A stretch of DNA of 50,577 nt from Candidatus Blautia faecavium (GTDB taxonomy: Bacteria > Bacillota > Clostridia > Lachnospirales > Lachnospiraceae). A program made the position numbers and the translations under genes. A model generated the notes under the pieces. It searched no databases. It was not told the origin of the DNA and worked only from the letters and a program-made list of their open reading frames with translations. The stretch covers positions 1-50,577 of the forward strand of contig DWYZ01000087.1 in assembly GCA_019118425.1 (NCBI GenBank), written 5' to 3'. Positions 46,242 through 50,375 of this stretch are shown here, piece by piece (the first letter of the stretch is position 1; every line of letters starts with the position of its first letter).

Positions 46242-47474
46242 TCATGGTAAAAATTTCAAGATTTCAGGAAATGGTTCCAGACTGCGGCGCAGAATTCCTG
46301 TCACCTGAGCGATCAAAATGCCATAATTAGTCACAGGCACCCCCTGATCCTGGCAGCAGGCGATCCGGTATTTCATTTCTCTTTCATTGAGCATGCAGCC
46401 TCCGCAGTGGACCACCAGTTTGTAAGAAGAAAGGTCGTCGGGAAATTCTGTGCCAGAGGTAAAGACAAATTCTGGTTCCTTTTTTGTATATTCCCGTATC
46501 CATTTAGGAATTTTATAGGTTCCGATATCGTCACACTGGCGATGATGGGTGCAGCCCTCTGCGACCAGGATCTTATCTCCGTTTTCAATGGAAGAAAGAG
46601 CGGCAGCGCCCTGTACTGCTGTCCCCAAATCTCCTTTATATCTGGCAAAGAGAATGGAAAAAGAGGTAAGGGGGATCGTTTCCGGAGTATCCTGGGATAC
46701 CCGCTTAAAGGCCTGACTGTCTGTGACTACCAGCTTGGGACAGACGCCTTTTGAAAGAAAATGGTTAAGGGTATCCTTAAGCTCTGTGTCCCGCACCACC
46801 AGGGAAAGAGCACCCCGTTCCAGAATATCACGGATGGTCTGCTGCTGGGGAAGAATCAGCCTTCCTTTAGGAGCCGCCTTGTCAATAGGCACCACTAGGA
46901 TCACAAGATCCAGAGGGGAGATTAGGTCTGCGATAATGGGATACTTGTGTGTATCCTCCGGTTTCAGAGACGCAAGCTTTTCCTTTAAGAGTTCGATGTT
47001 GATTCTTTTTTCTGCGCTGACCCAGAGTTCATTGGAATTCTCTGCGTCCTTTTCCAAAAGATCCTTCTTCTCTTCTGGAAGAAGATCCGACTTATTGTAA
47101 ACAATAAGATAAGGAATATTTTTTGCCTGGAAACGCTGGATCAGGGCTTCTTCCTCTTTCGTGATCCCTATTGTTCCATCTACGATCAAAACTGCAATAT
47201 CCGTTTTATTTAAAACCTGGTAACTTTTCTGAACCCGGAGCTTTCCAAGAGCTCCCTCGTCATCAATGCCAGGGGTGTCGATCACCATAACCGGGCCAAG
47301 GGGTAAAAGCTCCATGGTCTTAAATACCGGGTCAGTGGTAGTCCCTTTGACCTCGGAAACAATAGCCAGGTTCTGGTTGGTGACTGCGTTGATGATGCTG
47401 GACTTTCCGGCATTGCGTTTTCCAAAAAAGCTGATATGTACCCGCTCAGAAGCAGGTGTTTGATTCATTCCCAT
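46242..47474 (-). CDS. hydF: [FeFe]-hydrogenase maturation GTPase HydF
   Basis: A 410-residue scaffold protein for assembling the H-cluster. The N-terminal GTPase domain has G1 GKRNAGKSSIIN, G3 DTPGIDD and G4 NKSD. The C-terminal cluster domain has EGCTHHRQCDDIG and VVHCGGCM, the HydF Cys/His ligands. The start at 47474 is preferred to a long upstream extension because AGGAGG lies before it and HydF proteins begin here. HydE and HydG are not in the window. Presence of HydF implies a hydrogenase elsewhere in the genome. Confidence 0.94.
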   Translation of the reverse strand: MGMNQTPASERVHISFFGKRNAGKSSIINAVTNQNLAIVSEVKGTTTDPVFKTMELLPLGPVMVIDTPGIDDEGALGKLRVQKSYQVLNKTDIAVLIVDGTIGITKEEEALIQRFQAKNIPYLIVYNKSDLLPEEKKDLLEKDAENSNELWVSAEKRINIELLKEKLASLKPEDTHKYPIIADLISPLDLVILVVPIDKAAPKGRLILPQQQTIRDILERGALSLVVRDTELKDTLNHFLSKGVCPKLVVTDSQAFKRVSQDTPETIPLTSFSILFARYKGDLGTAVQGAAALSSIENGDKILVAEGCTHHRQCDDIGTYKIPKWIREYTKKEPEFVFTSGTEFPDDLSSYKLVVHCGGCMLNEREMKYRIACCQDQGVPVTNYGILIAQVTGILRRSLEPFPEILKFLP

Positions 47475-47559
47475 AGTGCCCTCCTTAATAAATGAAAATT
47501 GATAACATCTTATTATATTAGCACATTTTGATTTCGTTTTGTAAAAATGTTTTCCGGTA

Positions 47560-47632
47560 TTGCATTTTAGAAAAAACATGGTAAAATAAAAGTCACGATG
47601 TAGAAATATACATAACATGTGCATAAATATGC
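47560..47632 (+). promoter_or_regulatory. Promoter and palindrome before the amino acid ABC transporter
   Basis: TTGCAT (47560-47565) and TAAAAT (47582-47587) with a 16-bp spacer. A perfect palindrome GCATAAATATGC (47621-47632) lies between the transcription start and the ribosome-binding site; it resembles half of an ArgR box, a weak similarity. Confidence 0.5.
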
Positions 47633-47650
47633 CAATAAGGAGGAAGAAAA

Positions 47651-48436
47651 ATGAAAAACATGAAAAAGTTTGCGGCACTGACACTGAGTGCGGCTATGGC
47701 AGCTGCTATGGCGGTACCGGTATCTGCAGCGGAGATCACATCCAGCGAGGATCTTCCAGGTAAGAGGATTGGTGTTCAGTTGGGAACCACAGGCGATTTG
47801 GAGGCTTCTGAATATGAAGCAGAAGGAGCTACTGTTGAGAGATACAGCAAAGGAAGTGAAGCGATTCTTGCGTTAAAGGCAGATCAGCTTGACTGTGTGA
47901 TCATTGATTCCCAGCCGGCAGCGAAATTTGTGGAGCTGAACGATGACCTTAAGATCCTGGATGAGCCGCTTACAGAAGAGGAGTACGCCATTTGCTTAAA
48001 GAAAGGAAATGACGAACTTTTGGAAAAAATCAACGGTGCATTAAAAGAATTGAAAGAGGATGGTACCGTTGACAGTATCATGGACAATTATATCGGCGAT
48101 AATATCGGCGAGACTCCCTATGAATCTCCGGAAGATGTAGATCGCTCCAACGGGACTTTAGTCATGGCTACGAACGCTGAGTTTGAGCCATACGAATATC
48201 ATGACGGAGATGACATCGTAGGCATTGATGTAGATATCGCACAGGCTATCTGTGATAAGCTTGGTTACGAGCTGGAAGTAGAAGATATGGAATTTGATGC
48301 GATCCTTCCGGCTGTTCAGTCTGGAAAAGCTGATTTTGGCGCAGCAGGTATGACAGTTACAGAAGACCGTTTGTCAAGCGTTGACTTTACAGATACTTAT
48401 GCAGATGCCAGCCAGGTTATCATTGTAAAGAAATAA
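47651..48436 (+). CDS. Substrate-binding protein of amino acid ABC transporter, circularly permuted
   Basis: A 261-residue secreted protein: signal peptide (residues 1-27, cleavage after VSAA) and type II binding-protein sequence in unusual order. Residues 28-150 match the second half of GlnH/HisJ-type proteins (DLPGKRIGVQLGTTGDLEA, CVIIDSQPAAKF, DELLEKINGALKELKEDGTV). A linker (151-168) leads to residues 169-261, which match the first half (LVMATNAEFEPYEY, GIDVDIAQAI, DFGAAGMTVTEDRLSSVDFT). Normally the order is the reverse, so the gene is a circular permutation. No lipobox Cys is seen, which is unusual for a Gram-positive binding protein. The permease and ATPase genes follow in order. Confidence 0.88.
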   Translation: MKNMKKFAALTLSAAMAAAMAVPVSAAEITSSEDLPGKRIGVQLGTTGDLEASEYEAEGATVERYSKGSEAILALKADQLDCVIIDSQPAAKFVELNDDLKILDEPLTEEEYAICLKKGNDELLEKINGALKELKEDGTVDSIMDNYIGDNIGETPYESPEDVDRSNGTLVMATNAEFEPYEYHDGDDIVGIDVDIAQAICDKLGYELEVEDMEFDAILPAVQSGKADFGAAGMTVTEDRLSSVDFTDTYADASQVIIVKK

Positions 48437-48540
48437 TTCCAAGTAACCAGGTGACAGAGCTGTTGACCTTTGGTTGCTTTATATCCATTCATCCGGTTTA
48501 TTTCTGATTGATGCAGAGGATACAAATTACGGCTTGGATA

Positions 48541-48583
48541 CAGCCCGCCTGTCGCCTTAGGGCGAATAAAAAGGCGGGCTGCG
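48541..48583 (+). terminator. Intercistronic hairpin between binding protein and permease genes
   Basis: CAGCCCGCCT and AGGCGGGCTG form a strong stem with an inner TCGCC/GGCGA stem; only a short A-run and no T-tract follows. It more likely limits downstream expression or stabilises upstream mRNA than fully terminates. Confidence 0.6.
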
Positions 48584-48661
48584 TTGATGTTTGCCAGTGA
48601 GTCGGCGAAAGCAGAAACATTTGTCAGCAGTTTTTATTTAAGAGAATAAGAGGAAAGGAAA

Positions 48662-49360
48662 ATGATATTAGCTAGTATACAAGACGATTTATATATCAAT
48701 TTTATAAAAGACGGTCGTTATATGTGGCTGGTAGACGGATTAAAGACTACGCTTATCATAACGCTTTTTGCCGTTATTGTAGGAATCATTATTGGCTTTA
48801 TTGTGGCAATCATCCGTTCTACCCATGATAAATCAGGGAAATTTAAGATTCTGAATGCAGTCTGCCGTGTGTATCTTACAGTAATCCGCGGCACGCCTAC
48901 CATGATCCAGCTTCTGATCATGAATTTTGTAATTTTTGCCTCTGTAAATATGAATAAGATTATCGTGGGCGGTCTGGCCTTCGGCATCAATTCCGGCGCT
49001 TATGTAGCGGAGATCGTCCGCTCCGGGATCATGTCCATTGATGAAGGGCAGACAGAAGCGGGAAGAAGCCTGGGACTTAACTTTTCCCAGACCATGCGGC
49101 TGATCGTTATGCCGCAGGCATTTAAAAATGTTCTGCCTGCACTGGTGAACGAATTTATTGTTTTGATTAAGGAAACATCCATTATCGGATACATTGGAAT
49201 GATGGACCTGACCAGAGGCGCTATGCTTATCCAAAGCCGTACTTACAATGCTTTCTGGCCCTTAATGGCAGCGGCTGCCATCTATTTGATCATTGTTATG
49301 ATCCTGACCTTTGCTATGAATAAGCTGGAAAGGAGGCTGAGGACAAGTGAGCGTCGATAA
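48662..49360 (+). CDS. Polar amino acid ABC transporter permease
   Basis: A 232-residue permease of the HisM/GlnP group with five helices. It has the conserved cytoplasmic EAA-type loop [21 protein letters not shown] and an N-terminal helix ([20 protein letters not shown]). It follows the permuted binding protein and overlaps the ATPase gene by 14 bases. GAGGAAAGG precedes the ATG. Together the three genes form one importer for polar amino acids. Confidence 0.94.
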
Positions 49361-50093
49361 AAGTAAGGTATTGATCGAAGTGCAGGGCCTGGAAAAGGCT
49401 TTTGGAAGCCATCAGGTATTAGATGGAATTTCCACGGATATCTGCCAGGGAGAAGTAGTCGTGGTAATCGGGCCGTCTGGTTCGGGAAAATCTACATTTC
49501 TGCGCTCCTTAAATCTTTTAGAAAAGCCTACCGGCGGCAGGGTCCTGTTTGAAGGAACGGATATCACAGATCCGAAAGTAGATATTAACCGCCATCGTCA
49601 GAAAATTGGCATGGTTTTTCAGCAGTTTAATCTGTTTCCCCATAAAACAGTGAAAGAAAACATTATGCTTGCCCCCGTTACGTTAAAACTGATGACGCCC
49701 CAGGAGGCAGACAAACGTGCCCAGGAGCTGCTAGAGAGAGTAGGCCTTCCAGAGAAGGCGGATTCTTATCCGGATATGCTTTCAGGCGGGCAGAAACAGC
49801 GTATCGCCATAGCTAGGGCTTTAGCGATGAATCCGGATGTGATGCTGTTTGATGAGCCTACCTCGGCTTTGGATCCGGAAATGGTGGGCGAGGTACTGGA
49901 GCTTATGAAGGAATTGGCCGAATCTGGAATGACTATGGTGGTGGTAACCCATGAGATGGGATTCGCCGGAGAGGTAGCTACCAGGGTGGTATTTATTGAC
50001 GACGGAAAAATCCAGGAGGAGAATACTCCGGAAGAATTTTTCGCCCATCCGAAAAATAAGCGTCTGCAGGACTTTTTGTCTAAGGTGCTTTAA
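49347..50093 (+). CDS. Polar amino acid ABC transporter ATP-binding protein
   Basis: A 248-residue GlnQ/HisP-type ATPase: Walker [14 protein letters not shown]-loop [12 protein letters not shown], signature [15 protein letters not shown], Walker [14 protein letters not shown] and H-loop VVTHEMGFA. It starts with GTG at 49347, inside the permease gene, with AGGAGG about ten bases upstream. A terminator follows 37 bases after its stop. Confidence 0.95.
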
Positions 50094-50189: not shown

Positions 50190-50230
50190 GAAAAAGGGAT
50201 ATAAAGACAGAGATCTGTATATAATAAAAT

Positions 50231-50375
50231 CATGATTATGTGTAATTTAAAACGATTAAAAAACTTGAAAACGTGTAATATATAGGAAATAAAAATCTTC
50301 AAAACGTGTATTATGCAGAGATTAAAAATCTTGAAAATGTGTGATTTGACAGTTTTAAAAATCTTGAAAACGTGG
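50231..50375 (+). repeat. 33-bp-period direct repeat array
   Basis: CTTGAAAACGTGT-type cores occur at 50264, 50297, 50330 and 50363, exactly 33 bp apart; a weaker copy (CATGATTATGTGT) is at 50231, again 33 bp before. Cores are preceded by TAAAAA(A/T) and separated by about 12 variable bases. Each core has a TTGAAA resembling a -35 box. The array ends 50 bases before the start of the AAA ATPase gene. It is too short and irregular for CRISPR. Confidence 0.8.

Follow-up and report, generated by a model that had tools for sequence, protein, structure and literature searches.

The protein encoded at 47651-48436 of the window (the whole 50,577-nt stretch of Candidatus Blautia faecavium DNA analysed here) is very probably a circularly permuted, working substrate-binding protein of a polar amino acid importer with one permease and one ATPase, and sequence comparison indicates that segment order has changed repeatedly in its family. 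In the normal fold, lobe 2 is inserted into lobe 1, and the chain crosses the hinge twice. We cut the family into three segments, N (the first part of lobe 1), L (lobe 2) and T (the last part of lobe 1), and classed its members by the order of their profile matches, the normal order being NLT. The window protein, by its sequence and its model, instead begins with lobe 2 and then builds lobe 1 from the old C-terminal part, a new linker and the old N-terminal part (Table 1). With one crossing cut at the edge of lobe 2, each lobe is continuous, and a single covalent crossing is left between the lobes.

The open reading frame begins with an ATG preceded by an AGGAGG motif. In the Pfam search, the SBP_bac_3 profile (PF00497) matched its product with 126.7 bits against a cut-off of 26.4, split into two stretches, the better of which aligned window residues 170-261 with profile positions 1-92 of 132, that is, with the start of the profile. 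Among sequences of solved structures, the top match by phmmer was AncQR (4zv1), whose residues 9-104 pair with residues 167-261 of the window protein (E 1.2e-23) and whose residues 109-233 pair with residues 29-150 (E 9.1e-23). These boundaries agree closely with an earlier sequence-only reading, which had proposed reversed halves at 169-261 and 28-150 in one copy each. A profile of 65 permuted relatives matched 213 PDB sequences, and in 59 of the best 60 the best stretch covered one half only (52 matched in two stretches and 7 in one). The remaining one of those 60, 6h30, was alone in spanning both halves in one stretch; it is a tandem of two normal domains, and its junction reads C-half then N-half. 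The canonical SBP_bac_3 order, N-terminal half followed by C-terminal half, is thus reversed in the window protein, making it a permuted homologue rather than a canonical member, with a single copy of each segment, a cyclic order and joined old termini. Pfam, phmmer and permuted-profile matches were all reversed, which excludes the normal-order alignment that the same reading had named as evidence against itself. Its further claim of a swap and not a duplication also stands, as profile and structure-sequence matches were single-copy and no remnant of a second copy was detected in the flanks 46901-47650 and 48437-48661 (best E 1.7). At the level of sequence the observation is confirmed as real and not an artefact, because 46 of 60 genus genomes match the window protein colinearly in the same LTN order (a hand count that includes its own genome and two contig-end fragments, G012 and G026); the other 14 hold other relatives only.

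Table 1. Features of the permuted binding protein locus in the window.
Feature	Position	Strand	Basis
Permuted SBP_bac_3 amino acid binding protein, order L-T-N, 261 aa	47651..48436	+	Profile and structure-sequence matches
Putative signal peptide, residues 1-26, ending VSA-AE, no lipobox cysteine	47651..47728	+	Cleavage site by eye
Segment L, residues 28-98 (lobe 2); the chain now starts right behind what is the first hinge crossing in the normal protein	47732..47944	+	
Segment T (C-terminal part of lobe 1), residues 99-150; starts close to the one covalent hinge strand still present (model E82-91)	47945..48100	+	
Linker, residues 151-166 (NIGETPYESPEDVDRS), bridging the old C- and N-termini	48101..48148	+	
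Segment N (N-terminal part of lobe 1), residues 167-261; its last stretch is the cut hinge strand ASQVIIVKK (model E225-234)	48149..48433	+	
GC-rich inverted repeat CAGCCCGCC/GGCGGGCTG between binding protein and permease genes	48541..48581	+	By eye
Permease, polar amino acid type (BPD_transp_1), 232 aa	48662..49360	+	Profile matches
ABC ATPase, 248 aa; GlnQ is the top NCBIfam match, under its cut-off	49347..50093	+	Profile matches

The assignment of segment L to lobe 2 is one that we take from the known fold, and the linker resembles that of all six near relatives compared. The permease and ATPase genes that had been reported behind the binding protein were both found there (Table 1), and with their adjoining genes the locus reads as a polar amino acid ABC importer. 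The inverted repeat between the binding protein and permease genes scored as no terminator in a consensus terminator scan, and it perhaps sets the ratio of the two products; an Rfam scan of the region at the gathering threshold gave no match. Four overlapping 50-nt copies of an AT-rich repeat, spaced 33 nt start to start and with a core of about AAAAATCTTGAAAACGTG, lie at 50226-50374, directly upstream of a truncated ORF at the window end, whose product we presume to be ATP-binding. The GTPase ORF at 46242-47684 on the minus strand, with C-terminal His/Cys motifs, is one that we take to resemble the hydrogenase maturation factor HydF.

As had been noted from the sequence, the signal region ends without a cysteine, which is also the case in many near relatives, and the window protein therefore does not carry the lipobox cysteine of Gram-positive lipoprotein binding proteins. 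With a simple pattern, which misses some real-looking lipoboxes (e.g. L084, L106, L112 and L115), a lipobox-like cysteine ahead of the first segment was found in 72 of 112 LTN, 92 of 99 NLT and 65 of 67 TNL distinct proteins. Since most of the unmatched LTN proteins are close relatives of the window protein, lipobox loss looks like a feature of its close group rather than of permutation.

An AlphaFold2 model of the mature window protein, for which the mature chain and 64 permuted relatives served as input, was one confident fold (pLDDT 96.2, pTM 0.90) with linker confidence above 90, and this single-chain prediction backs the earlier view that the halves close into one two-lobed protein. Two ten-residue strands lie at the assigned hinge crossings of the model; strand 82-91 (mature-chain numbering) still joins lobe 2 to lobe 1, and strand 225-234 terminates the chain. 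Order-keeping comparison by Foldseek gave partial matches to the window model, with TMq up to 0.53 among the 50 rows listed, low values that are expected of a permutant and do not amount to a positive superposition. The model of a TNL protein, L125 (pLDDT 94.9, pTM 0.86), matched Gln-bound GlnBP structures at 2.0-2.7 Å over 176-188 columns, a length that would fit its N+L part, and several other Foldseek rows, the top match among them, had an rmsd of 6 Å or more.

All three cyclic orders, the normal NLT, the LTN of the window and TNL, were found among relatives, in numbers (102 NLT, 114 LTN and 68 TNL distinct proteins, plus 3 with a cut inside lobe 2) that mirror the search strategy and not abundance. 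The remaining classified proteins were tandem arrays, contig-end pieces and L246, in which L and N scored above the threshold and T below it. The nearest named relatives of the window protein belong to Blautia (85% identity), and the permuted gene is present on the complete Blautia parvula chromosome (L029). The same module order, for which the sequence-only reading had proposed a search, occurs in further genomes of the family: a colinear match spanning 225 residues or more was counted by hand in at least 62 of 299, its own genome included, with part of the 62 read and with G254 (a triple tandem), G226 (truncated) and G139 (unread, 34% identity) excluded. Among class genomes, at least 52 of 341 had a contiguous T-linker-N match, and all 52 proved permuted when read (19 LTN and 33 TNL). 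Three other class matches with a later start or stops (L236, L243 and L244) turned out to be in normal order. In a draw of 348 genomes of the phylum, eight from outside the class matched from position 8 or earlier to position 160 or later: L190 is LTN, L238-L240 are divergent LTN, three more have lobe 2 cut, and L201 is a tandem; the four weaker matches that we read (L237, L241, L242 and L245) were in normal order or cut by a contig end. Of plasmid records, 566 matched the permuted query, and the 25 listed all matched in two pieces.

Several of these loci have unusual architectures. The cut inside lobe 2 was seen in L196, L199 and L214, from genomes outside the class, and L196 as a protein starts near EIQRYEF and ends near GTTGDIAITKLIEGK. 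L201 is a 779-aa frame with a tandem LTNLTN and a fused permease, and a similar-looking frame, L245, is cut by a contig end. L118, a 973-aa frame, consists of three very similar normal-order binding domains and a fused permease, and positions 502-2262 of L088 hold two adjoining LTN binding protein genes in one locus.

The number of order changes was estimated on unrooted trees, so that counts do not separate gains from losses. A joint tree of 211 rotated units under a quick model required 13 changes, and a more careful tree of 86 proteins, picked after the first tree was seen and with a bootstrap that had not settled, required 10. In the 86-protein tree, well-supported branches alone demand 5 changes for TNL and 3 for LTN. 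AU tests rejected a single origin of either order: joining the 21 TNL rows cost 203 log units (p-AU 5.9e-5), and joining 20 of the 22 LTN rows, the long rows L190 and L238 having been left out after the tree was seen, cost 57 log units (p-AU 0.002). Permutation has thus most likely happened repeatedly in Clostridia, with the two hinge crossings as the usual cut sites. The comparisons indicate that rotations had several origins and at least two cut points, one of the rotations having taken place between closely related proteins of one genus.

That genus is g464 (family f66), in which 85 genomes were searched: 22 held a full TNL match, 57 matched only in N and L in order (normal order or, as in G1362, a fragment) and 6 had no match at 1e-50. 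Each matching genome had one match, as for a single-copy operon gene. We read 18 TNL and 18 NLT proteins, and a permease-like frame followed in all 36 loci; relative to the end of the binding protein frame, it opened anywhere between 46 nt upstream and 130 nt downstream. By eye, the lipoprotein signal peptides of the two orders are similar. In the two TNL proteins compared segment by segment (L224 and L298), every segment was 84-92% identical to its nearest NLT relative. In all three trees (joint, N-only and LT-only) the TNL proteins branch within NLT, with joint-tree support of 98/96 for the TNL group and 100/99 once its NLT neighbours are added.

The rotations may have arisen when a gene was duplicated in tandem, the copies fused and the product was trimmed at lobe borders, and they would be tolerated because the old termini lie close together and a hinge cut breaks up neither lobe. 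This is in essence the route of the sequence-only reading, which is plausible: tandem arrays and adjacent duplicates do exist (L118, L237, L201, L088 and L242), and a half-trimmed intermediate was not found. Neither trimmed intermediates nor remnants of lost copies were detected among the loci and flanks examined, where the only remnant-like matches were the neighbouring duplicate gene in L088 and signal peptides. Two candidates for such intermediates were set aside on reading, the 432-residue G1386 frame, which is a gene in normal order preceded by an open stretch, and frames of about 510 residues matching about residues 16-260, which are permuted binding proteins fused to a permease. By eye, TNL proteins carry at the end of their T-N junction residues (e.g. 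FTTIESGK) that in normal-order proteins stand ahead of N, as would be expected if the second tandem copy had kept its own spacer. Together with the tandem arrays (L118 and L237) and the adjacent duplicates (L088 and L242), these junction residues favour permutation by duplication, a model outlined in the available text of PMC3320104, with the individual steps being inferred.

The same orders might also have come about by fission and fusion, with half-genes of two different parents being joined and no rotation taking place. The segment identities of the window protein lend this some appeal, its N being far closer to that of the nearest normal-order relative (85% identical) than its L (58%) or T (67%), and in the N-only tree the LTN clade is unresolved, its rows scattering among NLT rows. 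However, the 16 main LTN rows form a clade in the LT-only tree (100/95), the N-only tree does not reject that clade (p-AU 0.345), and the closeness of N could come from either slower evolution or conversion of this segment. For N, L and T alike, the nearest relatives of the recent g464 permutants are NLT proteins from their own genus, and a free-standing half was not seen among the classified proteins (frames of at least 100 aa; two LT pieces lie at contig ends), so that we regard a joining of two parents as improbable. Still less credible is a domain-swapped dimer, in which halves would pair between chains and the reordered chain would work only as a dimer; the cut hinge would permit such pairing and nothing favours it directly, and the single chain, linker included, is predicted as a confident fold (pTM 0.90). 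There is scarcely any chance that the gene is in decay or a remnant without function, a reading to which the missing lipobox, with which the protein may leave the cell surface, would lend itself: the frame is open and under apparent purifying selection, its ligand-binding residues and operon are conserved, and the order is identical in those 46 genus genomes.

Rotation of a working gene, as favoured here, is consistent with the marks of selection, which lend indirect support to the functional status that had been suggested for the protein. Omega was 0.045-0.076 in the three of six comparisons with computable dS (1.7-2.1), dS being saturated in the other three and all six lying near or beyond saturation. 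In GlnH-type proteins, an arginine of lobe 1 and an aspartate of lobe 2 hold the amino acid ligand. The corresponding R240 and D86 of the window protein are invariant in all 65 LTN rows, and the same Arg and Asp are invariant in all 41 TNL rows. A permease is fused or lies downstream in 106 of 112 LTN and 64 of 67 TNL distinct proteins; for LTN it is a separate gene in 94 of the 112 and fused in 12. Fused binding protein-permease frames of about 500-600 aa were seen in L110-L117, L119, L151, L159, L181 and L332, and in L110, L111, L117 and L332 the cut hinge end runs via a short link into the permease. In all 14 NCBIfam equivalog families listed (GlnH/ArtJ/ArgT), the window protein scored below the cut-off, for example 129.4 against 303 for GlnH and 144.9 against 256.35 for the LAO subfamily. 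We infer from the conserved features that it acts as GlnH does, but with a single covalent crossing of the hinge in place of two; it would close on an amino acid in the same way and then deliver it to the adjacent permease.

Compared with known systems, the window protein shares homologous segments, the same Arg and Asp and the same transporter type with GlnH, ArtJ, AncQR (4zv1) and T. maritima ArgBP, but its halves are rotated and one hinge crossing is cut. Its order was absent from the best 60 of 213 PDB chains, the tandem 6h30 apart. That structure, SBD1-SBD2 of GlnPQ, shows the same fold duplicated and fused in nature, with C-half then N-half across the junction, but it consists of two complete normal domains and is not a permutant. 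Permuted sugar and betaine binding proteins are already known. TpMglB-2 (Tp0684), of 'Type Ic / Cluster Bc', is likewise a natural permuted ABC importer binding protein, but according to the available text of PMC4990184 it has a Type I sugar-binding fold in which three N lobe strands have moved, it represents one permuted class, and its permuted parts are barely alike in sequence (13%). By comparison with that description, the window protein falls outside the class, its profile and PDB matches being to SBP_bac_3. Homologues of TpMglB-2 occur in gut Gram-positives, and in the same available text its authors ask whether anchoring drives permutation. Glycine betaine (OpuAC/ProX type) and molybdate binding proteins and CysB are also permuted two-lobed folds (CPSARST, PMC2395249), but in the accessible part of that source the relations were found by structure at below 24% identity, whereas here the order differs among close relatives whose segments share as much as 92% identity. 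A literature search, which missed most subscription papers, found no report of permuted SBP_bac_3 proteins among the papers listed.

Whether such changes confer an advantage invites a bolder and rather doubtful reading, namely that Clostridia binding proteins permute repeatedly, with the three rotations and the lobe 2 cut being independent, and that rotation is selected and not neutral. Going from a two-crossing to a one-crossing hinge and moving the tether to the hinge might retune opening, release or docking.

The natural permutations of binding proteins that we found in print are single classes or relations between distant proteins. For annotators, the present family means that normal-order profiles split permuted SBP_bac_3 proteins, and protein engineers gain natural permutation sites in a biosensor fold. 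With rotated pairs from the same operon and the same genus, whose segments are 84-92% identical in the pairs compared, the effect of rotation on folding, hinge motion, affinity and transport becomes measurable.
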